Below, piece after piece: positions 6,620 to 22,588 of a stretch of 45,582 nt of DNA. Both the position numbers and the translations under genes were made by a program. The stretch is from an uncultured Alphaproteobacteria bacterium (GTDB lineage: Bacteria > Pseudomonadota > Alphaproteobacteria > Parvibaculales > Parvibaculaceae), in assembly GCA_903889655.1 (NCBI GenBank), contig CAISYL010000234.1, forward strand, positions 1-45,582, given 5' to 3'. Numbering within the stretch: the stretch's first letter is position 1; each line of letters starts with the position of its first letter. The notes under the pieces are model-generated. The model saw only the letters and a list, made by a program, of their open reading frames with translations, was not told where the DNA came from and searched no databases.

Positions 6620-6979
6620 CTAGAGCCGCGCGGGTTCTATCGTGACGCTCTCGCCGCAGCCGCAGGCGTCCGTCACATTCGGATTGTTGAACTTGAAGCC
6701 AGCGGAGAACTTGTCGGTCTCATAGTCCATCTCGGTGCCGATAAGAAAGAGGATCGCCTTCGGGTCGATCAGAATCTTGACGCCCTTGTCCTCGACTACT
6801 TCGTCGAGCGGCTTTACGGCCTCGGCATATTCCATCGTGTATTCCATGCCGGCGCAGCCGCCGTTCTTCACGCCGACACGCAGGCCCACATATTTGCCTT
6901 CGGAACGCGACATGATGGCCTGCAGATGCTCCGCAGCCCTGTCGGTCAGCCTGATTGCCTTGGGACGTTCTCTCGCCAT
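6620..6979 (-). CDS. sufA: A-type Fe-S carrier protein
   Basis: A 119-residue HesB/IscA/SufA family protein that takes [Fe-S] clusters from the SufBCD scaffold and passes them to targets. The three conserved cysteines are present: one in GGCAGMEY and two in the C-terminal ACGCGES. The gene is the last member of the suf operon, 49 bases after sufT. The acronym is by operon position; by sequence it could equally be called IscA/ErpA-like. Confidence 0.93.
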   Translation of the reverse strand: MARERPKAIRLTDRAAEHLQAIMSRSEGKYVGLRVGVKNGGCAGMEYTMEYAEAVKPLDEVVEDKGVKILIDPKAILFLIGTEMDYETDKFSAGFKFNNPNVTDACGCGESVTIEPARL

Positions 6980-7028
6980 GTTCTTACCTCAGGGCTACAA
7001 ATGGATATTGAGCCCTATTCCTTCAAGT

Positions 7029-7415
7029 TCAATACATGTTGAGCGCGACACGCGCCTCGTCGGACATCCGGCTCGGATCCCAGGGTGGATCGAAGGTCAT
7101 GTTGACCTTGACGTCGCCCACGCCCTCGACCGAGCGGACGGCATCCGCCACCATCTCGGGCATCGTGCCGGCAACCGGGCAGCCCGGCGCCGTCAGCGTC
7201 ATATCGATCAGAATGTCGCGATCGTCGGACACATCGACCTTGTAGATGAGACCGAGTTCGTAGATATCGACCGGAATCTCCGGGTCGTAGACGGTCTTCA
7301 GCGCCGCGACGATGTCGTCGCTGAGCCTGTCGAGCTCTTCCTGCGGAATGGCCGAAGGTGCGGGCACATCGCCCGCCTTCTCAGCCTCGTCCGCCATGTT
7401 TACCTCGTCCGACAT
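7029..7415 (-). CDS. sufT: SUF-associated DUF59/MIP18 family protein
   Basis: A 128-residue protein. After a variable N-terminal 30 residues comes the DUF59 (MIP18/PaaD-like) domain with the motif DPEIPVDIYELGLIY and the cysteine in TLTAPGCP. Relatives assist Fe-S cluster maturation or delivery in the SUF pathway. The start at ATG 7415 is chosen because GAGG lies 8 bases ahead; a TTG five codons upstream (7430) overlaps the sufS stop. It lies between sufS and sufA in the operon, which supports the SufT assignment. Confidence 0.88.
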   Translation of the reverse strand: MSDEVNMADEAEKAGDVPAPSAIPQEELDRLSDDIVAALKTVYDPEIPVDIYELGLIYKVDVSDDRDILIDMTLTAPGCPVAGTMPEMVADAVRSVEGVGDVKVNMTFDPPWDPSRMSDEARVALNMY

Positions 7416-7426
7416 AACCGGAATCC

Positions 7427-8677
7427 TCAACCAAAGAATTTCTTCGCATCGATGAGGGCGGCAACCAGCCGGTCGACCTCCTCATGCGTCGTGTACATCG
7501 CGAAGGAAGCCCGCGCCGTCGCCGTCACGCCGAAGCGTTCCATCAAGGGCTGCGCGCAATGATGTCCCGCGCGGACCGCGACGCCCGCCCGGTCGATGAT
7601 GGTCGCAATGTCATGCGCATGCGCCGTCCCCATCGCAAAGGAAATGATGCCGCCCTTGGTGCGCGACGTGCCGATAATACGAAGATCGTTGATGGCCGAC
7701 AGTCGCTCCGTCGCATAGGCGAGAAGGCTCGTTTCATGCGCGGCGATGCGGGCGCGACCGATGCGATGCACGTAATCGAGCGCCGCGCCGAGACCGATCG
7801 CCTCGACGATTGCCGGTGTGCCGGCCTCGAAGCGATGAGGCGCGGCCGCGTAGGTGACGTTCTCAAGCGACACTTCACGGATCATTTCGCCGCCACCGCG
7901 ATAGGGCCGCATCTTCGCCAGCAATTCTTTCTTGCCGTAAAGAAGCCCGATGCCGGTGGGGCCATAAATCTTGTGACCCGTCACGGCATAGAAATCGGCA
8001 TCGAGGTCGCGCACATCGACGTCGAGGTGAACGGCGCTCTGCGAGCCGTCCACGACAACCGGAATGCCCTTCGCATGGGCGAGCCGGATGATCTCCTTCA
8101 TCGGCGTCACCGTGCCGAGCACGTTCGACATATGCGTCAGCGCGACGATCTTGACCCTGGGGCCGAGCAGCTTCTCGTAAGCTGCCATGTCGAGGTCTCC
8201 CTCGTCGGTGACCGGTACCCATTTCAGAACGGCACCCTGTCGCTCGCGCAGGAAGTGCCACGGCACGATGTTCGAATGGTGCTCCATGACCGAGAGCACG
8301 ATCTCGTCGCCGGGCTGAATCAGCGGCGCAGCATAGCTCGACGCGACGAGGTTGAGCGCATCCGTCGAACCGGAGGTGAAAATGATCTCGTCGGTCGAAC
8401 CGGCATTGAGAAAGGCACGCGCCTTCTCGCGCGCATCTTCGAAGGCCTGCGTCGCGGCATTGGAAAGATAATGAAGCCCGCGATGGACATTCGCGTATTC
8501 GCTTTCCATCGCATGGGTCATCGCGTCGATGACGGCCCTGGGCTTCTGTGCGGAGGCACCGTTGTCGAGATAGACGAGCGGCTTGCCATAAACTTCACGC
8601 GACAGGATCGGGAAATCGGCCCGCACGGCCGCCACATCATAGGGCGCTTCGCCGATGTTCAGGGTCATCTCGGTCAT
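7427..8677 (-). CDS. sufS: Cysteine desulfurase SufS
   Basis: PLP-dependent group II cysteine desulfurase of 416 residues that removes sulfur from cysteine as a persulfide for Fe-S assembly. The PLP lysine is in VTGHKIYGP (about K236) and the persulfide cysteine in RAGHHCAQPLM (about C374), both intact. The start codon overlaps the sufD stop (ATGA, 8674-8677), showing translational coupling, and GGAGAAG provides the ribosome site. No sufE is present in the window, so the sulfur acceptor must be encoded elsewhere or be another protein. Confidence 0.95.
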   Translation of the reverse strand: MTEMTLNIGEAPYDVAAVRADFPILSREVYGKPLVYLDNGASAQKPRAVIDAMTHAMESEYANVHRGLHYLSNAATQAFEDAREKARAFLNAGSTDEIIFTSGSTDALNLVASSYAAPLIQPGDEIVLSVMEHHSNIVPWHFLRERQGAVLKWVPVTDEGDLDMAAYEKLLGPRVKIVALTHMSNVLGTVTPMKEIIRLAHAKGIPVVVDGSQSAVHLDVDVRDLDADFYAVTGHKIYGPTGIGLLYGKKELLAKMRPYRGGGEMIREVSLENVTYAAAPHRFEAGTPAIVEAIGLGAALDYVHRIGRARIAAHETSLLAYATERLSAINDLRIIGTSRTKGGIISFAMGTAHAHDIATIIDRAGVAVRAGHHCAQPLMERFGVTATARASFAMYTTHEEVDRLVAALIDAKKFFG

Positions 8678-9999
8678 GCCGTCTTCTCCCGATGACGCTC
8701 GAACCAGCTCGCGGCAAGCTTACGCAGATCGTCGCGGGCCGCTTCATGCGGCACCGTCTCGAAGGCATCGTCGAGGAAGGCGGAAATCAACAGCTGCCGC
8801 GCGGTAGGTTCATCGATGCCGCGCGAGCGGAGATAGAAGATCGCCTCACGATTGAGCTCGCCAATGGTCGACCCATGCGCGCATTGGACGTCGTCGGCAT
8901 AGATCTCGAGTTCGGGCTTGGCGTTCATCGCCGCATCGCGCGAAAGAAGCAGCGCGTTGGTCATCTGCCGCCCATCGGTCTTCTGGGCATCTGGACGCAC
9001 GATGACCTTGCCCTGAAAGACGCCGGTCGAGGCATTATCCAGCACCGTCTTGAAGAGCGTCCTACTGGAGCAATTCGGCACCGCATGATCGACGATGCAG
9101 AAATGATCGCCATGCTGCGTGCCCGAGAGCGCCGTCGCGCCGTTTACATGCGCCTCCGCGCCCTCGCCCCTGAATGTGACAAAGCTCTGGCTGCGCGACA
9201 GCTTTGCGCCGAGCGTCAGCGAGAAGCTCGACAGCTTCGAGGACGCCGCGAGCTCCGCCGTCAGGCTCGCGAGATGAATGGCGTCCGCCGCCTCGTCCTG
9301 AATCTTGACATGGGTCAGCGCTGCGCCCTTGCCGAGCGAGACGTCGGTGACGTGATCGACGAAATAATTCCTCGCGCCGGCATCGAGATGAGTCTCGAAA
9401 ATCGTCGCTTCCGCACCTTCCTCCAGACGAACGAGATTGCGCACATGAGAGGCGCCGTCGTCGTTCGCGAGGAAGAGAAGATGCAACGGCGTGTCGAGCT
9501 TTGCCCCACGCGCGATATGAAGCCCGATACCGTCGCGCATCAGCGCGGTGTTGAGCGCGATGACATTCCCCGCCTGCGCCTCCACCTTCGTCTCGACCAG
9601 CGGACGAGCCCAGGTCGAATTCAGCGCGTTGCCGAGCGACATGAGCGTCACGCCGGCGGGCAGCTTCGTTCCCGATAGATCACTGCGAAGACGGCCGTTG
9701 ACGAAGACGATCACATGGCGGTCGATGTCGTGGAAAGCAGCGACCGAAGCCCGCTTCGCCGCATCCGGCAGAACCACAGCACCATCCGGCAGCGGCGCTG
9801 GCGAAAGCGTCGCGCCGCCAAGCGCCCGCGAAAGATCGGTGTAGCGCCAGTCTTCGAGCCGGCGATGGGGCAGACCTGCCTCCGCGAAAGCCTTCAACGC
9901 TTCCGCCCGCCGGGCGCCGAGCCATGCGAGGCCCGCGCCCGGCAGCGCCGCGCGCTCCCGCTCGTAGGTCTCGATGAAATTCCGGGCCGCGTCCGTCAT
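8674..9999 (-). CDS. sufD: Fe-S assembly protein SufD
   Basis: A 441-residue SufD, partner of SufB and SufC in the scaffold complex. The N-terminal ~150 residues are variable and helical; the C-terminal beta-helix core contains the conserved VDHAVPNCSSRTLFK and CAHGSTIGELN segments and ends in the helical DEPTARQLLISAF run shared by SufB and SufD. It is separated by 9 bases from sufC and overlaps sufS by 4 bases. Confidence 0.94.
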   Translation of the reverse strand: MTDAARNFIETYERERAALPGAGLAWLGARRAEALKAFAEAGLPHRRLEDWRYTDLSRALGGATLSPAPLPDGAVVLPDAAKRASVAAFHDIDRHVIVFVNGRLRSDLSGTKLPAGVTLMSLGNALNSTWARPLVETKVEAQAGNVIALNTALMRDGIGLHIARGAKLDTPLHLLFLANDDGASHVRNLVRLEEGAEATIFETHLDAGARNYFVDHVTDVSLGKGAALTHVKIQDEAADAIHLASLTAELAASSKLSSFSLTLGAKLSRSQSFVTFRGEGAEAHVNGATALSGTQHGDHFCIVDHAVPNCSSRTLFKTVLDNASTGVFQGKVIVRPDAQKTDGRQMTNALLLSRDAAMNAKPELEIYADDVQCAHGSTIGELNREAIFYLRSRGIDEPTARQLLISAFLDDAFETVPHEAARDDLRKLAASWFERHREKTA

Positions 10000-10008
10000 T
10001 TCGTTCCC

Positions 10009-10749
10009 TTACGCCGCAAATTCGGCATAGCCGGTACGTTCGAGTTCACCCGCGAGTTCCTTGCCGCCCGTACGAACGATGCGCCCCTTCGACAGCACAT
10101 GAATGACGTCAGGCACGATATAATCGAGCAGACGCTGATAATGCGTGATGACGACCATCGCGCGCTCCGGCGAGCGAAGCGTATTGACGCCTTCCGCGAC
10201 GACTTTCAGCGCGTCGATATCGAGCCCGGAATCCGTCTCGTCGAGGATCGCAAGCGACGGCTCCAGCAGCGCCATCTGCAAGATTTCGGCGCGCTTCTTC
10301 TCGCCGCCGGAAAAGCCGACATTGAGCGCCCGTTTCAGCATGTCGTCTGTGACGTTGAGCGGCTTCGATTTCTCCCGCACGAGCTTCAGAAACCGCGGCG
10401 CGTCGAGTTCGTCTTCGCCCCGCGCCTTGCGCTGTGCATTGAGCGCCGTGCGCAGGAACGTCATCGTCGTGACGCCCGGAATTTCGATCGGATACTGGAA
10501 AGCCAGAAACACGCCCGCCGCCGCGCGCTCATCCACATTCATGGCAAGCAGGTCGCGGCCCTTGTAAACGACCGAGCCCTCGGTGACCTCATAGCCGTCG
10601 CGACCGGCCAGCACATAGGACAGCGTCGACTTGCCGGAACCGTTCGGCCCCATGATCGCATGCACCTTCCCGGCCTCGACGGTAAGGTCGATACCTTTCA
10701 GGATTTCCTTACCGTCCACGGCAACATGCAGGTTCTTGATCTCAAGCAT
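10009..10749 (-). CDS. sufC: Fe-S assembly ATPase SufC
   Basis: A 246-residue cytoplasmic ABC-type ATPase that drives conformational change in SufBCD. Walker A is GPNGSGKST (34-42), the signature is FSGGEKKR and the Walker B/D-loop reads LAILDETDSGLD, the usual SufC form. The ATG shares one base with the sufB stop (TAATG at 10751-10747), so translation is coupled; the frame is open further upstream, but that part lies inside sufB and is not SufC-like. Confidence 0.96.
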   Translation of the reverse strand: MLEIKNLHVAVDGKEILKGIDLTVEAGKVHAIMGPNGSGKSTLSYVLAGRDGYEVTEGSVVYKGRDLLAMNVDERAAAGVFLAFQYPIEIPGVTTMTFLRTALNAQRKARGEDELDAPRFLKLVREKSKPLNVTDDMLKRALNVGFSGGEKKRAEILQMALLEPSLAILDETDSGLDIDALKVVAEGVNTLRSPERAMVVITHYQRLLDYIVPDVIHVLSKGRIVRTGGKELAGELERTGYAEFAA

Positions 10750-12203
10750 TAGCCAACGCTTCCTTCCAGACTGATGCCGACGAGCTTCTGGGCCTCGACG
10801 GCAAATTCCATCGGCAATTGCTGCAGCACGTCGCGGCAGAAGCCGTTGACGATGAGCGCGACCGCTTCTTCCTCGGGCACGCCCCGCTGGCGGCAATAGA
10901 ACAACTGCTCTTCACTGATCTTCGAGGTTGTCGCCTCGTGCTCCAGGATCGCGGTCGGGTTCTTCGATTCGATATAGGGAACCGTATGCGCCGAACAACG
11001 GGGGCCGATCAGCAGGCTGTCGCATTGCGTGAAATTGCGGACGTTCTCCGCCTTCTTGTGCACGCTGACGAGACCGCGATAGGTGTTCGACGAACGCCCC
11101 GCCGCAATGCCCTTCGAGATGATGCGGCTCGACGTATTGCGACCGAGATGGATCATCTTGGTGCCGCTGTCGACCTGCTGGTAATTGTTCGAGATCGCGA
11201 TCGAGTAGAACTCGCCACGCGAGTCGTCGCCGCGCAGGATGCAGCTCGGATATTTCCAGGTGACGGCGGAGCCGGTCTCGACCTGCGTCCAGGAAATCTT
11301 CGACCGCGCACCGCGGCAGTCCCCACGCTTCGTCACGAAATTGTAGATGCCGCCCTTGCCGTTCTCGTCGCCGGGAAACCAGTTCTGCACCGTCGAATAT
11401 TTGATCTCGGCATCGTCCATCGCGACGAGCTCGACAACGGCCGCGTGAAGCTGGTTCTCGTCGCGCTGCGGCGCCGTGCAACCTTCGAGGTAGCTCACAT
11501 AGGAGCCCTTGTCGGCGATGATCAGCGTCCGCTCGAACTGGCCGGTCTGCTTCTCGTTGATACGGAAATAGGTCGAAAGCTCCATCGGGCAGCGGACGCC
11601 TGGCGGGATATAGACGAAGGACCCGTCGGAGAAGACCGCCGAATTGAGCGTCGCGTAATAATTGTCGGAGGTCGGCACGACCGAGCCGAGATACTTCTTC
11701 ACCAGTTCCGGATGCTCGCGTACGGCTTCCGAGAACGGGCAGAAGATGACGCCCGCTTCCGCGAGCTTGGTCTTGAAGGTAGTGACGACCGACACGCTGT
11801 CGAAGACGGCATCGACCGCGACACCGGCAAGCAACTGCTGCTCGACCAGAGGAATGCCGAGCTTCTTGTAGGTTTCGAGAAGCTTCGGATCGACCTCGTC
11901 GAGCGAATTGAGCTTCGCCGACTGCTTCGGCGCTGAATAATAATAGGCATTCTGAAAGTCGATCGGCGGATAGGAGACCTTCGCCCATGTCGGCTCTTCC
12001 ATGGTCAGCCAGCGGCGATAGGCCTCGAGACGCCATTCAAGCATCCAGTCGGGCTCTTCCTTTTTTGCCGAAATGAAACGGATCGTGTCTTCGCTCAAGC
12101 CGATAGGCGCCCGCTCGGACTCGATGTCCGTCGAGAAGCCGTATTTGTACTTGTCGCTGGCGACCTGATCGACGGTCTCGACCGTCTCGCGAACCGCTGC
12201 CAT
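10749..12203 (-). CDS. sufB: Fe-S assembly scaffold protein SufB
   Basis: A 484-residue SufB, the subunit on which the nascent cluster forms. Visible hallmarks are [46 protein letters not shown] and the C-terminal [16 protein letters not shown]. The cysteine in [12 protein letters not shown], with nearby acidic residues in [14 protein letters not shown]-like context, matches the cluster/sulfur-accepting region of the family. The start at ATG 12203 is one base after the stop of the upstream cysteine desulfurase and has GGAG 9 bases upstream; a TTG at 12224 is an unlikely alternative. Confidence 0.95.
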
Positions 12204-12204
12204 C

Positions 12205-13389
12205 TCAACTCTCCACTTCTGCAAGCGCAGCCATCGGCGCGCTCGCCGTCGAACTCTTCACCTTGTCGCGCGCGCGGACCGCGGCGCGGGACCAACCCAG
12301 CACCAGCCGGTCGATCTCTTCTTCCGTATTCGCGAGCCCAAGGCTCACGCGGATCGCGCCTTTCGCCAGAGCGTCGTCGACACCCATCGCACCAAGCACA
12401 TGCGATCGCGCAACCTTGCCCGACGAACAGGCGGAACCGGCACTGACCGCGCACCCGTCGAGGTCGAGCGTCATCAGCAAGGTCTCGGCATCGAGACCCG
12501 GCGCCGAAAAGAGGCTCGTATTGGCGAGGCGCGGCGCAGCGTGACCGAAAATCCGCACCTCCGGCACGGCCTCGCGCAACGCTGCCTCGAGCCGGTCGCG
12601 CAACGCCTGCACGTGCGGCATCTCCGCAATTTCCCGCGCGGCGGATTTCGCAGCCGCACCGAAACCCGCAATGCCCGCCACGTTTTCCGTTCCGGAACGC
12701 CGGCGCAATTCCTGGCCGCCGCCACGGATCAGCGCCTCGAACGGCAGGCCGTCGCGGACGATCAGCGCGCCGACGCCCTGCGGCCCGCCGAGCTTGTGCG
12801 CGGACATGCTGATCATGTCGACGTCGAGCGCCGGAAAATCAACCGGCATTCGTCCCAATGCCTGAATGGCATCGGCGAACACCACGGCGCCAACTTGCCT
12901 TGCCATTTGCGCCGCCGCCGCGACCGGCTGCATCACGCCCGTCTCGTTATTCGCGAGCATGACCGCAACCAGCGCCTTGCCGGGCGCATCGAGACGCCGC
13001 GCCAACTCGCCGATATCGACAAGCCCATGCGCATCGACGCCGACGATTTCGACCGGAACGCCGAGCGCCGCCGCGGAGGCCCGCACACAATCATGCTCGA
13101 CTGCCGACAGGATCACGCGCTCGACGCCGAGCGCCGCGCGCGCCGTGTGAAGCGCAAGGTTCGCCGCCTCCGTCCCGCCGCTGGTGAAAACCACCTCGGC
13201 GGGCTTCGCATGAACGAGCGCAGCCACTGCTGCCCTCGCCTCCTCGACGAGTTTCCGCGCCGCCCGCCCCTCGGCATGGACCGACGAGGGATTGCCGCCG
13301 ATGAGCAACGCACGCGCGACCGCCTCCGCCGCCTCGGCGCGGACCGGGGCGGTGGCGTTATGATCCATATAGGCGCGTCTCATCGTCAT
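12205..13389 (-). CDS. Second cysteine desulfurase, NifS/IscS type
   Basis: A 394-residue group I (NifS/IscS-like) PLP desulfurase. The PLP lysine is in [11 protein letters not shown] (about K199), and the catalytic cysteine sits in the long flexible loop [10 protein letters not shown] (about C321), which distinguishes it from SufS. It is the second gene of the operon, between iscR and sufB, an arrangement common in alphaproteobacteria. Having both group I and group II desulfurases in one transcript suggests divided labour (for example tRNA thiolation versus cluster building), which is inference. The ATG at 13389 follows GAGGG by about 12 bases. Confidence 0.93.
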
Positions 13390-13426
13390 TCGCTTCGAAC
13401 CCTCGGGCTTCGGCGCAATCTCTATC

Positions 13427-13903
13427 TCAATCGGCAGCGTTGGAAATCGCCTGCTGGTCGCCCGCGCGGGCGCCTGGATGCGTCGTCGTCACCCGGCCAT
13501 TTATCACGTCGCCAAGCGAAACGGAGCCCAGGAAAAGATGAATCTGATGGCTCAGTTCCGCCCAGAGATCATGCGTGATGCAGCGGCTGGAGGAGTTGCC
13601 CATACAGCCTTTCGGCGAGCCGACCTCGCAGCGCGTCGCCTTGAGCGGCTCGTCCACGGCTAGAATGACGTCCGAAATGCGGATTTCATCGGCATGGCGC
13701 GAGAGCAGATAACCGCCCCCCGGCCCGCGCACGCTTTTCACAAGATCTCCACGGCGAAGCTTGGCAAACAGCTGTTCCAGATAGGAAAGCGAGATTTCCT
13801 GCCGCTCGGCGATGTCGGCCAGGGCCACCGGCCGACCGGTTCCGTAACGGGCCAGATCCGCCATCGCCATCACGGCATAACGTCCCTTTGTGGTGAGCTT
13901 CAC
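13427..13903 (-). CDS. iscR: Rrf2-family Fe-S regulator IscR
   Basis: A 158-residue transcription regulator with an N-terminal winged helix (MKLTTKGRYAVMAMADLA, then the wing RGPGGGYLL) and cluster ligands at about C92, C100 and C108 with H111 (CxxH pattern). E. coli IscR has C92, C98, C104 and H107, so all four ligand types are kept but each Cys gap is two residues longer. It most likely senses Fe-S status and represses the suf genes that follow. The start is GTG at 13903 with AGGAGA seven bases upstream. I found no clear palindromic IscR site upstream. Confidence 0.93.
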   Translation of the reverse strand: MKLTTKGRYAVMAMADLARYGTGRPVALADIAERQEISLSYLEQLFAKLRRGDLVKSVRGPGGGYLLSRHADEIRISDVILAVDEPLKATRCEVGSPKGCMGNSSSRCITHDLWAELSHQIHLFLGSVSLGDVINGRVTTTHPGARAGDQQAISNAAD

Positions 13904-17740: not shown

Positions 17741-17770
17741 AAGAAAAAGCCCCCTCCTGACGGAGAGGGC
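17741..17770 (-). terminator. Intrinsic terminator of the ferritin-like gene
   Basis: On the minus strand GCCCTCTCC (17770-17762) pairs with GGAGGGGGC (17757-17749) around a 4-base loop with one mismatch, followed directly by TTTTTCTT. It lies about 67 bases after the ferritin-like stop. The same stem could weakly stop tyrS transcripts from the other side. Confidence 0.72.
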
Positions 17771-17836
17771 CTATTCGCGTCCCACGGGGGCTTGGGGCGC
17801 TTGGGGTTGCCGCGGGTTTTCCCGCTGTTCGTTATT

Positions 17837-18970
17837 CTATTCCGCAGCCGTGCCGCTCAGTGCATAGATCGCCGCTGAACCGCCCGCTCCGTTCAACTCC
17901 TGCAGATAGCGAATGCCTTCCTCGGCAATGTCGTCGCCGATCATGCGGTCGCCTTCGCCGTGAAGTTCGGCCATGTCGACATAGGCGGCATACATCGGCG
18001 CGGTGCGCCTGGTGATGATGCCGGCCTTCAACAGGGTCTTGATCAGCACCCGAAAGATGTTGGTCGATTCCTGCATCGTCGCGCGCATCTGCTTGTCGGC
18101 CAGCGCTTCGGCCAGGGCCCCCTGTACCCAACGCCAGTCGAGCCCGATGCGTTCGTAGATTTCCTTCTTCTGCTCCGGGCCCGTGGAGTTCCGCAAGAGC
18201 TTCATGAAACATTCGAGCGCCCAGTCCTCGATCATATCGCGCTCTTCGGGCGGCAGCTTCGGCACGGTACGGTCTGCCCATATCTTGCCGAACTTGTGGT
18301 GGAAAGCCTCGTCCGTCATGACGAGTTGCATCAGCCGGCGCAGCAGCGGATCGTGCGTCTTGGCATAGAAGGACGCGAAGGCTCCCATCGCAAGCCCCTC
18401 GACGACCATCTGCATACCGACGAGTTTCTTCCAGACAAGCGGCGTCGCCACGATCTCTGTCAGGATTTCCTGAAGCACGACGCCGCAGGCTGTCGGCTTG
18501 CCCCATCGCACCTGGATATATTTCGCAAAGCCGGTGACGTGGCGCGCTTCCTCGCGCGTCTGGTTCGCGGCATATTCCTGCGCGCCGGGATCTTTCAGGA
18601 TGTGGCAAAGGCTCGCCGAGAGCGCGAGCGCACCGGCCTCGCCGTGCAGGATCGACGACATGTTCCAGCGCACTGCTTCGTTGACCAGATAGATTTTCTG
18701 ATCCGTGTTGAGCTTGTCGGAAACGGCCGTCTGCAATTCCATGTTGAAATCGGTCGGGACCAGAAGGTCGCGCTCGATATTCCATGGCGAATTGAAGTCG
18801 ATATATTTGGGGTCGAGCGGATCCCAGAAATGGTCGTGGGTCGCCGAGATGATCTTGTCGAAAGCGGTCGACCGCGCGCCGTAGCGATCGACATCCATCA
18901 TCGCCGGGAAGTCGTCGGGCGCGATGGCCTCATAGGCGGAATCCGTGGTCATGCGTTCGTTCGTGGACAT
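17837..18970 (-). CDS. Di-iron ferritin-like protein of unknown substrate
   Basis: A 377-residue soluble protein with a textbook di-iron four-helix-bundle ligand set: E111 (HGEAGAL), E141 and H144 (EEARH), E191 (VVEGLAMGAF), E221 and H224 (DEAFHH). The two half-sites have identical 30-residue spacing, as in ferritin-like oxygenases of the AurF / R2-like kind. The N-terminal 60 residues (HDHFWDPLDP) are not part of the bundle. The likely role is an O2- or peroxide-dependent oxygenase or oxidase, unassigned. The start ATG at 18970 follows GGAGGAGGAG. It is monocistronic, with its own terminator and an unusual dyad-containing promoter (19010-19040). Confidence 0.8.
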   Translation of the reverse strand: MSTNERMTTDSAYEAIAPDDFPAMMDVDRYGARSTAFDKIISATHDHFWDPLDPKYIDFNSPWNIERDLLVPTDFNMELQTAVSDKLNTDQKIYLVNEAVRWNMSSILHGEAGALALSASLCHILKDPGAQEYAANQTREEARHVTGFAKYIQVRWGKPTACGVVLQEILTEIVATPLVWKKLVGMQMVVEGLAMGAFASFYAKTHDPLLRRLMQLVMTDEAFHHKFGKIWADRTVPKLPPEERDMIEDWALECFMKLLRNSTGPEQKKEIYERIGLDWRWVQGALAEALADKQMRATMQESTNIFRVLIKTLLKAGIITRRTAPMYAAYVDMAELHGEGDRMIGDDIAEEGIRYLQELNGAGGSAAIYALSGTAAE

Positions 18971-19009
18971 CGTCTCCTCCTCCGCTGTCCAGAATGGCAA
19001 TGACACGAG

Positions 19010-19040
19010 TTTATATGCGGAGCGCTGCTCCGCAAATCAA
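19010..19040 (-). promoter_or_regulatory. MerR-type promoter: 19-bp dyad between -35 and -10
   Basis: Reading the minus strand, TTGATT (19040-19035) is followed by exactly 19 bases and then TATAAA (19015-19010). The 19-base spacer is itself a perfect dyad: TGCGGAGC (19034-19027), AGC, GCTCCGCA (19023-19016). Over-long spacers filled by a regulator dyad are the hallmark of MerR-family promoters. It lies 40 bases upstream of the ferritin-like ATG at 18970. A competing reading is an RNA hairpin behind the AsmA-like gene (ending at 19055), but no T-run follows. Confidence 0.6.
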
Positions 19041-19054
19041 ATCGACAACATGGG

Positions 19055-22000
19055 TTATGGTTTCGGCGCGGGATTTACCGGCGCTGCGGGTGTCGGCGTG
19101 GCGGCAGGCGCTGAAGCGGCGGCCGGCGGTGCTTTCTGATTATCGCCGACAGACTTGTCAGCAGGTGCAGCGGCAGGAGGCGCCGGCGAAGCCGGCTGTT
19201 CAGGCGGAAGCGAACTCGAAAATTCGAAAAGACGCCGCAGGAACCCGGGCGCAATCGCCGAGAGCGGATTCACGATCACGCTCGGATTGTCGATATTGCC
19301 CTTCACCGCATAGGTGAAGCCGAAAATTCCTTCGCCTTCGCGACCGACAATGAGCGGCCCGAGCAGCGGCACCTTCCCGAGAACCGAATTCACCGTGTAG
19401 GCGGGGACAAGAGTGCCTTCCATCTGCGCAACATCGGCCGAACGATCGATCTGCCCGTTGAGCGTAAGGCCGATGGCCGGCCCGGACATCCGCGCCTCCT
19501 CGACATGGATGCGGTGGCCGGTGACGCGGAACGGCAGCTTCAGCGTGTCGAAGAAAATGCCTTCGCCAGTCAGCGTGTCGCTGATGCCGGTCAGCGAGCC
19601 GAGCGTCAGGATCTTGGCGAGCACCGGCGCATTGGCGATGCGGAATTTCGATGCGCTGATCTCGCCGGTGAGCGGCGATCCCGGCAACCGGTCGTCGAAG
19701 ACCGCATCGGCGGAGAGATCGCCACCCCGTACGCCTTTGAAGAGGTCGAGTGCTCGGAAGACCGCGCCCGCATCGCTCGACCGCAACGTGAAGCTGCGTT
19801 GGCGGTTCGGCACCTGCGAGATCGATGTCGAAAGCTTGTTGCGCATCTGATCGAGCGCCAGCAGGTCCATCAGGTAGACATCGCCTTCGATCAACGCAAC
19901 GCGCGCATCGAGATCCGTGAACTTCGCATCGTTCTGCGCGGCGACTTCACCGATACGCGCCCGGATCGCGGTCCGAAGCGTCTGGTCCTTCTCCATCTCG
20001 GGCGTGAGCAGGCGCGTCGCCGCCCTCTCCGCCTCGGCCTTGTCGCCATTGCCGGAGATAAAGGCATGAAGCAGGCCGCGCGCGTCGGCCTTCGGCCCCT
20101 CGATATCGACGACGAGTTGTCCGTTCGCATCGCGCTGTGCCTTGAGAGCGATATCGTTGGTCGGCCCGAGTTTCACCGTCGGAATATTCGCGGAAAGAAT
20201 CCGGTTCTTCTTGTCGATGGAGAAGACACCCTTGACGGCTATGCCCTCGCCTGCCATCGCAAAGTCCGTGAAACTGTACGCATCCGGCAGAAAACCGATC
20301 TTGAGATCGACCGTGGCGGGTTTCCCGACCGGCTTCGACCAGCCGAGCTGATCGACCTTCGCGACTGCCTTGGTCAAATCCGCATGGACGACACCGCTGG
20401 CTATGTTGGCGCCTTTGCCCGTCAGCGTCGCGTGAATGCTGGGCGAGCCGATTACCCAGTCGGTCAGGCCGAGGCCGATGGCGGTGCGTTCCGCGTCGTT
20501 GAGCGTGCCGGAAAAATCGAAGCTCGACCCCGGTCCCTTGGTCGGCACGAAACTCTCTGTCCAGACGACCTGTAGCGGCGATGTTCCGTTGAGGCTAACC
20601 TGCCCCTTCGCCTTGAGACCGCTGCGCACAACATCGATGTCGAGCGTGCCATCGGTGATCGAGAGGTCCTTCTGGATATTCGGAATTCCAACCTTCTCGG
20701 CATGCGCCGTGCCGGAGAAATCGACATCGTCCATCTTGACGGTCTTGACCAGCGGCAATCGTAGCTTGGCGCTGAGCGAGCCTGTGCCGCCGATGGTCGA
20801 TGGATCCAGACCGAAGCCACGAATGAGCTTCAGCGGCTCGTGATCGAGGAGACCCAGGATGTCAGCGGTTGCTGCATTGGCTGTCAGCTCGATGTCGCCG
20901 ATACTGTGTTTGTTGGCAAGCTCGCCATCGGCGAAATGGCCGTTCGTGACCGCGATCGGTTTGCCCGGCGCAACCATGACCGTCGCCGAAGAGACCCAGG
21001 CGTCGAAGCGGTTGCCCTGCAAGGTGCCGCGCGCGGAAACGCCGGTCATCGGCGGCATGCCGTCGAGATAGCTGACCTGAGCGCCGCTGACGTTGAAATT
21101 GAAATGAACGCTGTCGTCGGGGATCGCCTTGCCTTCGTCGGCGTCGGCGAACATGTCGGCCGGCACGTCGACGGCGAAGTCGCCCTTTTCGAGCATACCG
21201 CCACGCATGTTCTTGGCGACCCATTCCCGCGCATGGGACGACACCGGTAGCGGCCATATGGCGCGCACCGTATCGACGGGAATGGTCGCCATGGTCCCTT
21301 TCACATGGATGGCGGGCGAACGCGGGCCGGACTCGACCGTGCCCGCCGCGCTGATCTTGCCTCCGGCGACACCGAGCGTGATGTCTTCGATGTCGAGCGC
21401 GCGCTTGTCGAAATCGAGCAGCATCGCGATGCGCGCATTGTCGAGTTCGAAGGGCCCCTCGAAGAAACCCGGAATCTCTGTCGTGGTCTTGCCTGCGCGG
21501 AGATCGACGCGCGCCGTGGATATATCGAGGCCCGTGCCCAGCACATAATTGACGTGACCGCTGAGCGAGGCGCTATGCGGGCCGGCCTGCAGCACGAGTT
21601 GCTTGAGGTCGAGACGCCGCTTTATGGCATCGAGCGTAAGTTCGGCCCGCGCCCGTTCGATCGAAACCGGCGCCTGCTGCAAGCCGGGAAGAACGAAACT
21701 GCCCTTGCCCGCCTCCAGGGTCAGCCGCGCGCCGATTACATTGCCGTTCGGCTGCATGTCGAGCGTGCCGTCGGCATTCAGCGGCGCGTCGAAGACCGCG
21801 TAATTGGCAAAGCTCGGCGACATGCGGGCGAGCGCCGACGGTACGAAGTTGCTGGCCTTCACGGCGACATCGACTGTCTTTCCGTCCGCAGCCAGCGCAC
21901 CGTTGAGATCCAGATGGCTGGTCGTCTCGCCGATCTTCACATCCGCGGCGAGCTGGCCGCTGATCCCGCGACGTCCCCGGTCGAGCAGAAAATGGGCGTT

Positions 22001-22588
22001 GGGTGCTTCGAAGGTGACGCCGTTCACCTCGTCGATGAAATGCAGCGTCGCATTCTGGACGCCGACATGCCGAAGATGTCCCAGGGTCGGATCACTCTTG
22101 CCGCCATCCAGCAGTGCTTCCAGCAGGGGCCCGAGGAAGGCGCCCGCTTCACGCTTTTCGGTCGTCGCGCCCGACGGCGCGAGCCCCAGCGAAATCCCTT
22201 CGGGGCGGCGGACCAGCGTGACGCTCACATCGTAGATATCGATATAGGTCGGCGCGATCCGGCCGATCAGGAGCGCCGGCACGCTCAGCCGGAACGAAAG
22301 TTCCGGAATGGTCGCAACCTCGTTCTGGCCTGCTCCGGTCAGATGCACGTCGACGAGGCGCAGGCCCAACTGCCGCGTCTCGGGGGACCAAAGGAGAATC
22401 GTGTTGCCGATCGTCAGCCGCCCGCCTTCGAGTTCGCCGCGCGCCGAGTCCTCGATGATCTGGCTGAGAATGGGGAGGGGGATCGGCCCGGACGACAGGC
22501 GCCAGGCGAGCACCGCAAGCAGAACCGCCGTCGCCGCAACGGCAACGCCCAGAACCTCAAGCGCAATCTTACTCGTCCGGCGTATCAA
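19055..22588 (-). CDS. AsmA/YhdP-like giant envelope protein (DUF3971)
   Basis: An 1177-residue protein with one N-terminal transmembrane anchor (about 9-30) and a long periplasmic body of repeating beta-rich segments, typical of the AsmA-like superfamily. The size and layout, with a DUF3971-like central region and an AsmA-like C-terminal part (LTLNGQIDRS, then IFGFTYAVKGN), resemble E. coli YhdP (about 1266 residues), implicated in phospholipid transport between membranes. The last ~55 residues are a Pro/Ala-rich tail. The start is TTG at 22588 with AGGAGAT about 10 bases upstream. It reads divergently from the peroxiredoxin gene. Confidence 0.85.
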   Translation of the reverse strand: MIRRTSKIALEVLGVAVAATAVLLAVLAWRLSSGPIPLPILSQIIEDSARGELEGGRLTIGNTILLWSPETRQLGLRLVDVHLTGAGQNEVATIPELSFRLSVPALLIGRIAPTYIDIYDVSVTLVRRPEGISLGLAPSGATTEKREAGAFLGPLLEALLDGGKSDPTLGHLRHVGVQNATLHFIDEVNGVTFEAPNAHFLLDRGRRGISGQLAADVKIGETTSHLDLNGALAADGKTVDVAVKASNFVPSALARMSPSFANYAVFDAPLNADGTLDMQPNGNVIGARLTLEAGKGSFVLPGLQQAPVSIERARAELTLDAIKRRLDLKQLVLQAGPHSASLSGHVNYVLGTGLDISTARVDLRAGKTTTEIPGFFEGPFELDNARIAMLLDFDKRALDIEDITLGVAGGKISAAGTVESGPRSPAIHVKGTMATIPVDTVRAIWPLPVSSHAREWVAKNMRGGMLEKGDFAVDVPADMFADADEGKAIPDDSVHFNFNVSGAQVSYLDGMPPMTGVSARGTLQGNRFDAWVSSATVMVAPGKPIAVTNGHFADGELANKHSIGDIELTANAATADILGLLDHEPLKLIRGFGLDPSTIGGTGSLSAKLRLPLVKTVKMDDVDFSGTAHAEKVGIPNIQKDLSITDGTLDIDVVRSGLKAKGQVSLNGTSPLQVVWTESFVPTKGPGSSFDFSGTLNDAERTAIGLGLTDWVIGSPSIHATLTGKGANIASGVVHADLTKAVAKVDQLGWSKPVGKPATVDLKIGFLPDAYSFTDFAMAGEGIAVKGVFSIDKKNRILSANIPTVKLGPTNDIALKAQRDANGQLVVDIEGPKADARGLLHAFISGNGDKAEAERAATRLLTPEMEKDQTLRTAIRARIGEVAAQNDAKFTDLDARVALIEGDVYLMDLLALDQMRNKLSTSISQVPNRQRSFTLRSSDAGAVFRALDLFKGVRGGDLSADAVFDDRLPGSPLTGEISASKFRIANAPVLAKILTLGSLTGISDTLTGEGIFFDTLKLPFRVTGHRIHVEEARMSGPAIGLTLNGQIDRSADVAQMEGTLVPAYTVNSVLGKVPLLGPLIVGREGEGIFGFTYAVKGNIDNPSVIVNPLSAIAPGFLRRLFEFSSSLPPEQPASPAPPAAAPADKSVGDNQKAPPAAASAPAATPTPAAPVNPAPKP

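Follow-up and report, generated by a model that had tools for sequence, protein, structure and literature searches.

The window, by which we mean the whole 45,582-nucleotide stretch of DNA analysed here, carries on its minus strand an AurF/R2-like di-iron gene (P0001, 17837..18970, ATG at 18970), assigned from Pfam, residue and model evidence and preceded in the sequence by the ribosome-binding site GGAGGAGGAG (18974..18983, minus strand). Downstream on the same strand lies a terminator-like hairpin with a T tract (17747..17772, a pattern match only), and upstream a YhdP-family gene (19055..22588) whose stop codon falls 20 nt ahead of a 19-bp dyad (19016..19034, minus strand), TGCGGAGC AGC GCTCCGCA, which we propose, from its sequence and its conservation among orthologues, to be an operator. 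The di-iron ATG follows 45 nt beyond the dyad. Read on the minus strand from 19040 to 19010, the sequence runs TTGATT (19035..19040), then TGCGGAGCAGCGCTCCGCA, then TATAAA (19010..19015), and the two hexamers match TTGACA at 4/6 and TATAAT at 5/6 positions. The initial annotation regarded them as the -35 and -10 elements of a MerR-like promoter in which two perfect 8-bp arms and a 3-base centre fill all 19 bases between the hexamers, and the sequence bears out this description of the dyad. Two further hexamers can be read on the same strand: TAAACT (19008..19013), an alternative -10 of the form TAnnnT, and TTGCGG (19030..19035), which overlaps the left arm of the dyad, lies 16 bp from TAAACT and could possibly serve as a -35, TTGCG being present at this place in 17/17 of the aligned orthologous promoters described below. 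Elsewhere in the window, positions 6620-13903 hold a gene run that reads, with names given from reading the sequences, as a SUF-type operon for iron-sulphur clusters, at whose head stands a gene for an Rrf2-family regulator (13427-13903, Pfam E 1.3e-37).

The protein encoded behind the dyad matches the Pfam AurF family at E 4.8e-6 with 26.4 bits, below the curated cut-off of 29.6 bits. It contains two E...ExxH di-iron motifs, and all 35 sequences compared, among them the protein itself, share E112, E142, H145, E192, E222 and H225 without exception. This is the pattern of an R2/AurF-type di-iron site and suggests that these residues act as its ligands. The predicted model is helical (mean pLDDT 80.8) and, when compared with known structures, finds R2 proteins first, five of them at E up to 0.001 with a TM of about 0.4; AurF itself (2jcd) follows at rank 18 with 11 percent identity, an rmsd of 5.6 and a TM of 0.51/0.60, which is better than that of the top-ranked R2 proteins, even though R2 proteins and an R2-like oxidase rank ahead of it. 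Searched by sequence against solved structures, the protein alone gave no match, and a family profile gave weak matches only, led by aldehyde decarbonylases and R2 proteins (best E 0.0098). The product is thus probably an AurF/R2-like protein of ferritin-like fold and a predicted oxygenase, in agreement with the ferritin-like di-iron protein of the initial annotation. Going by the model, it would share its ferritin-like di-iron fold with AurF, the R2-like oxidases and aldehyde-deformylating oxygenase, while the Pfam score, the low identity and the rmsd all set it apart from AurF.

Taken alone, the dyad is unremarkable, because its frequency matches that of resampled sequence: the window contains 8 perfect dyads whose arms reach 8 bases or more and whose loops span 3-8 bases, where 20 Markov-resampled windows average 8.45, and those with a loop of 3 occur 3 times against 2.0. 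It is the conservation of the dyad, rather than the dyad itself, that exceeds chance and leads us to take the site as real. For the comparisons among genomes, motif 1 was written as TGCGGAGTNNNACTCCGCA and a site was counted at up to 3 mismatches, orthologues were called at 80 percent identity or more, and the genus, taken to be Parvibaculum since the nearest named loci belong to it or to its family, was represented by 27 genomes. An orthologue of the di-iron gene was found in 19/27 of these, the window's own genome included, and motif 1 lies upstream of all 19; seventeen of the promoters were aligned (class 1), and the remaining two, from G015 and G049, were read separately. In P. indicum DSM 25305 this locus has a site with 2 mismatches. 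A dyad lost where the gene is kept, which the initial annotation had named as the outcome that would speak against its reading, was seen in none of these genus orthologues. A wider survey covered 71 genes of the di-iron family from 66 of 80 loci, the other 14 and a gene whose upstream region was short being left out; 17 of the 71 carry motif 1 at the same tolerance within 330 bases upstream, where base-shuffling of the upstream regions of the di-iron family genes leads one to expect 0.16. This conservation marks the dyad as a genuine regulatory element of the di-iron gene.

The exact form of motif 1 is found in 9/40 genomes of the family, one copy in each, and in 0/13 genomes of other genera. 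Seven of the nine copies precede the di-iron gene and one precedes a second di-iron gene; the ninth stands at a contig end adjoining the YhdP-family gene, with the following gene cut off. A looser palindromic pattern gave 73 matches in the 27 genomes versus 29 for a reversed control. Across the sites most arm positions hold about 2 bits of information and most flanking positions less than 1 bit, with the exceptions of -8, -7, -2, -1, 20 and 21, and the consensus of the sites is GAGT-NNN-ACTC. Less favourable to a shared operator, only two motif 1 copies were seen in the window's own genome, G003 offers nothing better than a 3-mismatch site, and no motif 1 site was found in G018. The place of the dyad behind the YhdP-family gene is likewise kept, its start lying 21-51 nt past the YhdP stop in the ten loci checked. 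It can outlast the gene that it precedes: in G006 and G043 the dyad persists between YhdP and tyrS though the di-iron gene is missing, and in G009 it is followed by a di-iron stub with an early stop (the three dyads lie at L100 1502, L211 4993 and L143 6002). In L029, L030 and L031 an extra half-site, TGCGGAGTG, occurs some 20-25 bases upstream of the full dyad. The loose-pattern sites were read together with their genes for a subset, at least a dozen being left out; among those read, every site outside the three target classes (the di-iron gene and the two described below) was either intragenic or unconvincing. Matches set aside as coding or unconvincing are those of L003, which precedes a 3-hydroxybutyryl-CoA-dehydrogenase-like gene, L140, which precedes an acyl-CoA-dehydrogenase-like gene, and L132-L134, L215, L220-L223, L225 and L226.

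Motif 1 recurs in front of two other genes. The first is a second AurF-family gene (Pfam AurF, 61.4 bits), of which 15 copies were found and 14 scored, the G049 copy being left out; 12/14 have motif 1 at up to 3 mismatches and the other 2/14 have it at 4. In 12/14 copies the end of the dyad lies 23-30 nt ahead of the start codon, a repressor-like place, and in 12/14 the ribosome-binding site starts 8-14 nt past the dyad. Most copies of the gene have as divergent neighbour a zinc-dependent-reductase gene that reads, by its sequence, as crotonyl-CoA-reductase-like, and at L126 3192-16527 the second di-iron gene is found, again by reading, amid ethylmalonyl-CoA-pathway-like genes and the gene of a Baeyer-Villiger-type flavoprotein. 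In G007 (L135 6044-6936) a Crp/Fnr-family gene (Pfam) stands directly upstream of it on the same strand, with motif 1 between the two. The second gene encodes a ferredoxin reductase (Pfam Pyr_redox_2 and Reductase_C) and has motif 1 at up to 3 mismatches in 15 of the 22 genus genomes that possess it, at 65 to 235 nt from the coding reference; the window's own genome is one of the seven in which the reductase gene is without the motif. At two of the reductase loci listed, the next gene reads as a 2Fe-2S ferredoxin. The arm changes in the sites of both co-targets affect one side only, as for a protein site. In one sister genus, two genomes have a reductase locus (L255 2894, L256 2893) with TGCGTTG...ACTCCGCA, a weak motif-1-like site of 3 mismatches and a possible early form of motif 1.

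The initial annotation proposed that a MerR-family activator binds the dyad within an over-long spacer of 19-20 bp and untwists the DNA so that the hexamers are aligned. A strong palindrome within a 19-20-bp spacer is indeed the published MerR-type signature (PMC1526738), and the window, where the dyad fills a 19-bp spacer between hexamers with 4/6 and 5/6 matches as in the promoters of MerR, CueR, CadR and ZntR, fits it. Over the 17 aligned orthologous promoters the proposed -35 matches its consensus at a mean of 1.71/6 positions, where 1.5 is expected at equal base use, and the proposed -10 at 2.88/6; TAnnnT is absent at the latter place in 17/17, and in 13/17 it is found 2-5 bases further on, at an offset of 21-24 from the first base of the dyad. 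The exact 19-bp geometry scores 4.59/12, and only in the window, out of the 17, is the dyad flanked by two good hexamers at this distance. The exact fill is thus particular to the window's genome and is not kept in the other aligned promoters. A longer spacer fares better and favours the MerR proposal, since the best fixed pair of hexamers has 20 bp (-35 at -7, -10 at 19) and reaches 6.29/12, by a narrow margin over pairs with 18 bp (-35 at -7, -10 at 17; 6.18) and 16 bp (TTGCGG at -1, -10 at 21; 5.82). When the hexamers were placed freely, spacers of 19-20 bp scored 6.71 (null 5.27) and those of 16-18 bp 7.12 (null 5.66), and no shuffle reached either value; this near-equal excess means that hexamers alone cannot separate a MerR-like spacer from a normal one. 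According to PMC8407463, alphaproteobacterial promoters often have a -10 element without its last T, which casts extra doubt on any -10 call here.

The co-targets are more telling than the hexamers. At the second di-iron gene, a -10 placed behind the dyad would put the start of the transcript inside the ribosome-binding site, and the position of the latter, 8-14 nt past the dyad, therefore leaves no room for a MerR-type promoter; at the reductase gene, the hexamer immediately ahead of the dyad agrees with TTGACA at 0.13/6. The distance from the dyad centre to the -35 also differs from that of known MerR-type promoters, being 9 bases in the window and 10 for the 20-bp pair, whereas the rule given in PMC5045206, set for metal-sensor MerR sites of 21-22 bp, is 7-8 bp counted from the 3' end of that box. 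As the initial annotation had noted, the window is without a MerR gene (none by signature among its predicted genes), and the four MerR_1 proteins that the genome encodes, which favour its proposal, all lie outside it. Motif 1 is carried by 0/24 MerR loci scanned (the four of the window's genome and 20 stretches from six other genomes), with a best match of 4 mismatches at one locus, 5 at eight and 6 at fifteen, no better than in 155 background stretches; the genomes of the family hold further MerR genes beyond these 24 loci. The genus does have MerR genes that we take, going by their neighbouring genes, to be LiuR-like, but they follow a dyad of their own that is unrelated to motif 1: TTACGTNNACGTAA or a near form, with TTGACGCTTACGTCAACGT(A/C)AAC at L157 ~1911, L309 ~1282 and L320 ~1778, which is likely an autoregulatory site. 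An acyl-CoA dehydrogenase gene of the MPSYKAP type adjoins these genes, and a fadE-type gene follows in L157 and L320. Of the MerR promoter, then, the conserved regulatory dyad stands, and the MerR mechanism, weakened by the second gene, the reductase, the centre distance and the MerR loci, we now regard as unlikely.

It is also conceivable, if quite improbable, that a different kind of activator, such as one of the TetR or LuxR type, binds the dyad instead of a repressor. The poor promoter hexamers would suit such a protein, and sequence does not tell whether regulation is positive or negative, but the dyad overlaps the likely core promoter or sits behind it, where activators other than those of the MerR kind are rarely found.

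A GntR regulator of the FadR subfamily, whose operators have the signature GT-Nx-AC, was considered as the reader of the dyad since the centre of the consensus, GT-N3-AC, resembles that signature. A short GntR protein was read in the window's genome and in G014, was matched in G001 by frame and score and was not seen in G018, the genome without motif 1. The GT...AC positions vary, however: the window has GC...GC, and 5/17 class-1 sites have neither T-A nor C-G there. The short protein also occurs in G033, a genome without exact motif 1; no motif-1 site is reported beside its gene, and none was carried by the GntR genes of the six genomes searched, for which nine loci were read. We therefore hold a GntR regulator to be very unlikely.

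The reading that we find hardly credible is that of an RNA hairpin, for instance one that terminates the YhdP-family transcript or structures a leader: the dyad closely follows the YhdP stop, its RNA folds as an 8-bp stem with a 3-base loop, and the stem is largely kept in class 1 (pairs 1-7 broken in 2/119 cells, pair 8 in 4/17), but it has no T tract, no terminator is listed at the dyad, the leader has an ordinary fold energy (z -0.55), pair 5/15 is T-C in 15/15 reductase sites, pair 2/18 is broken in 4/14 second di-iron sites, the second di-iron gene is mostly divergent to its neighbour so that the site cannot end an upstream transcript, and Rfam gave no match for the whole window at gathering scores.

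Compared with these alternatives, an operator accounts well for the dyad. It is rather probable, in our judgement, that the dyad is the operator of a dimeric transcription factor, most likely a TetR- or MarR-like repressor, which acts at the di-iron promoter and is released by a ligand. The palindrome lies at the core promoter of its target, before TAnnnT in 13/17 promoters, a trait generic to many regulator families. Operators and small regulons of this sort are common, and the present site resembles those of one-component repressors of the TetR, MarR and GntR families in that a palindrome some 19 bp long recurs at the promoters of a small number of operons with a plausible connection; it differs from them in that no cognate regulator gene was found here among the MerR, GntR and TetR candidates. 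In the mechanism that we infer, a dimeric regulator bound to the dyad would cover the di-iron promoter region and block transcription, and would let go of the dyad in response to a signal derived from the substrate. This one factor would govern a small Parvibaculum regulon made up of the di-iron gene, the second AurF-family gene and, in most species, the ferredoxin reductase, which, together with the ferredoxin encoded behind it where this was read, could supply electrons.

The TetR genes were compared across G000, G014 and G018, and candidates were those whose orthologue is present in the window's genome while none of the 36 TetR genes recovered (of 40) in the site-free G018 matches them well. 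With 41 recovered in G014 (44 matched), seven candidates emerged from this distribution, none of them near a motif-1-like site (best 4-6 mismatches), and none of the MerR, GntR and TetR candidates examined carries motif 1. One of the TetR candidates, in L390/L448, adjoins a flavin-monooxygenase-like gene. In some relatives (L048, L053, L060, L082, L084) a TetR gene adjoins the di-iron family gene. This TetR was set aside as a candidate, its best identity over a long stretch being 35 percent in the six genus genomes searched; in G014, where motif-2 sites (see below) are present, its best match has E 1.1e-10. Another lead is CcrR, the regulator of the ethylmalonyl-CoA pathway, whose binding site was not found in the literature matches listed. 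Nothing relevant to motif 1, its gene grouping or Parvibaculum regulation appeared among the open-licence literature matches listed.

A second palindrome, motif 2 (TGACGN4CGTCA), is more widespread in the di-iron family, occurring at up to 1 mismatch within 330 bases upstream of 47/71 family genes versus 0.66 in shuffles. Both motifs are present at 5 of the 71 genes, motif 1 only at 12, motif 2 only at 42 and neither at 12. Motif 2 is thus found at 42/54 family genes without motif 1, namely at 9/10 in Parvibaculum records, where they are paralogues, and at 33/44 elsewhere. Just beyond the 79-percent set, the six closest relatives (L032-L037, 74-77 percent identity, under other titles) divide evenly: three carry motif 2, and the other three lack both motifs. 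The reductase genes follow suit, with exact motif 2 in 17/22 genus genomes and in 8/8 of those scored from the 13 genomes of other genera. The window's gene has four promoters, those in L021, L023, L025 and L026, that also contain motif 2 with one mismatch, its end lying 10 bases ahead of motif 1. As read from the sequence, this motif 2 runs over the YhdP stop codon, and part of it may therefore be coding. Motif 2 mostly precedes T-rich DNA, for example at L038 ~4870, L053 2772 and L082 4921.

The five genes with both motifs suggest an exchange of operators, in which motif 1 came to stand next to motif 2, the older operator, or on top of it. One could tentatively extend this to a plausible, if still somewhat doubtful, evolutionary scheme: the AurF-like oxygenases and the ferredoxin reductase would form an alphaproteobacterial motif-2 regulon, which Parvibaculum overlaid or replaced with motif 1 and another regulator, leaving some promoters half-way.

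For the reading of promoters, the present case indicates that judging a MerR-like geometry seen in one genome needs co-targets besides orthologues. For the biology of Parvibaculum, the operator that we favour would turn an odd single promoter into a defined regulon in which two uncharacterised di-iron proteins are linked with a ferredoxin reductase. This grouping suggests how the di-iron proteins may be supplied with electrons, and the 19-bp dyad could serve as a bait for their regulator and so lead to its signal.
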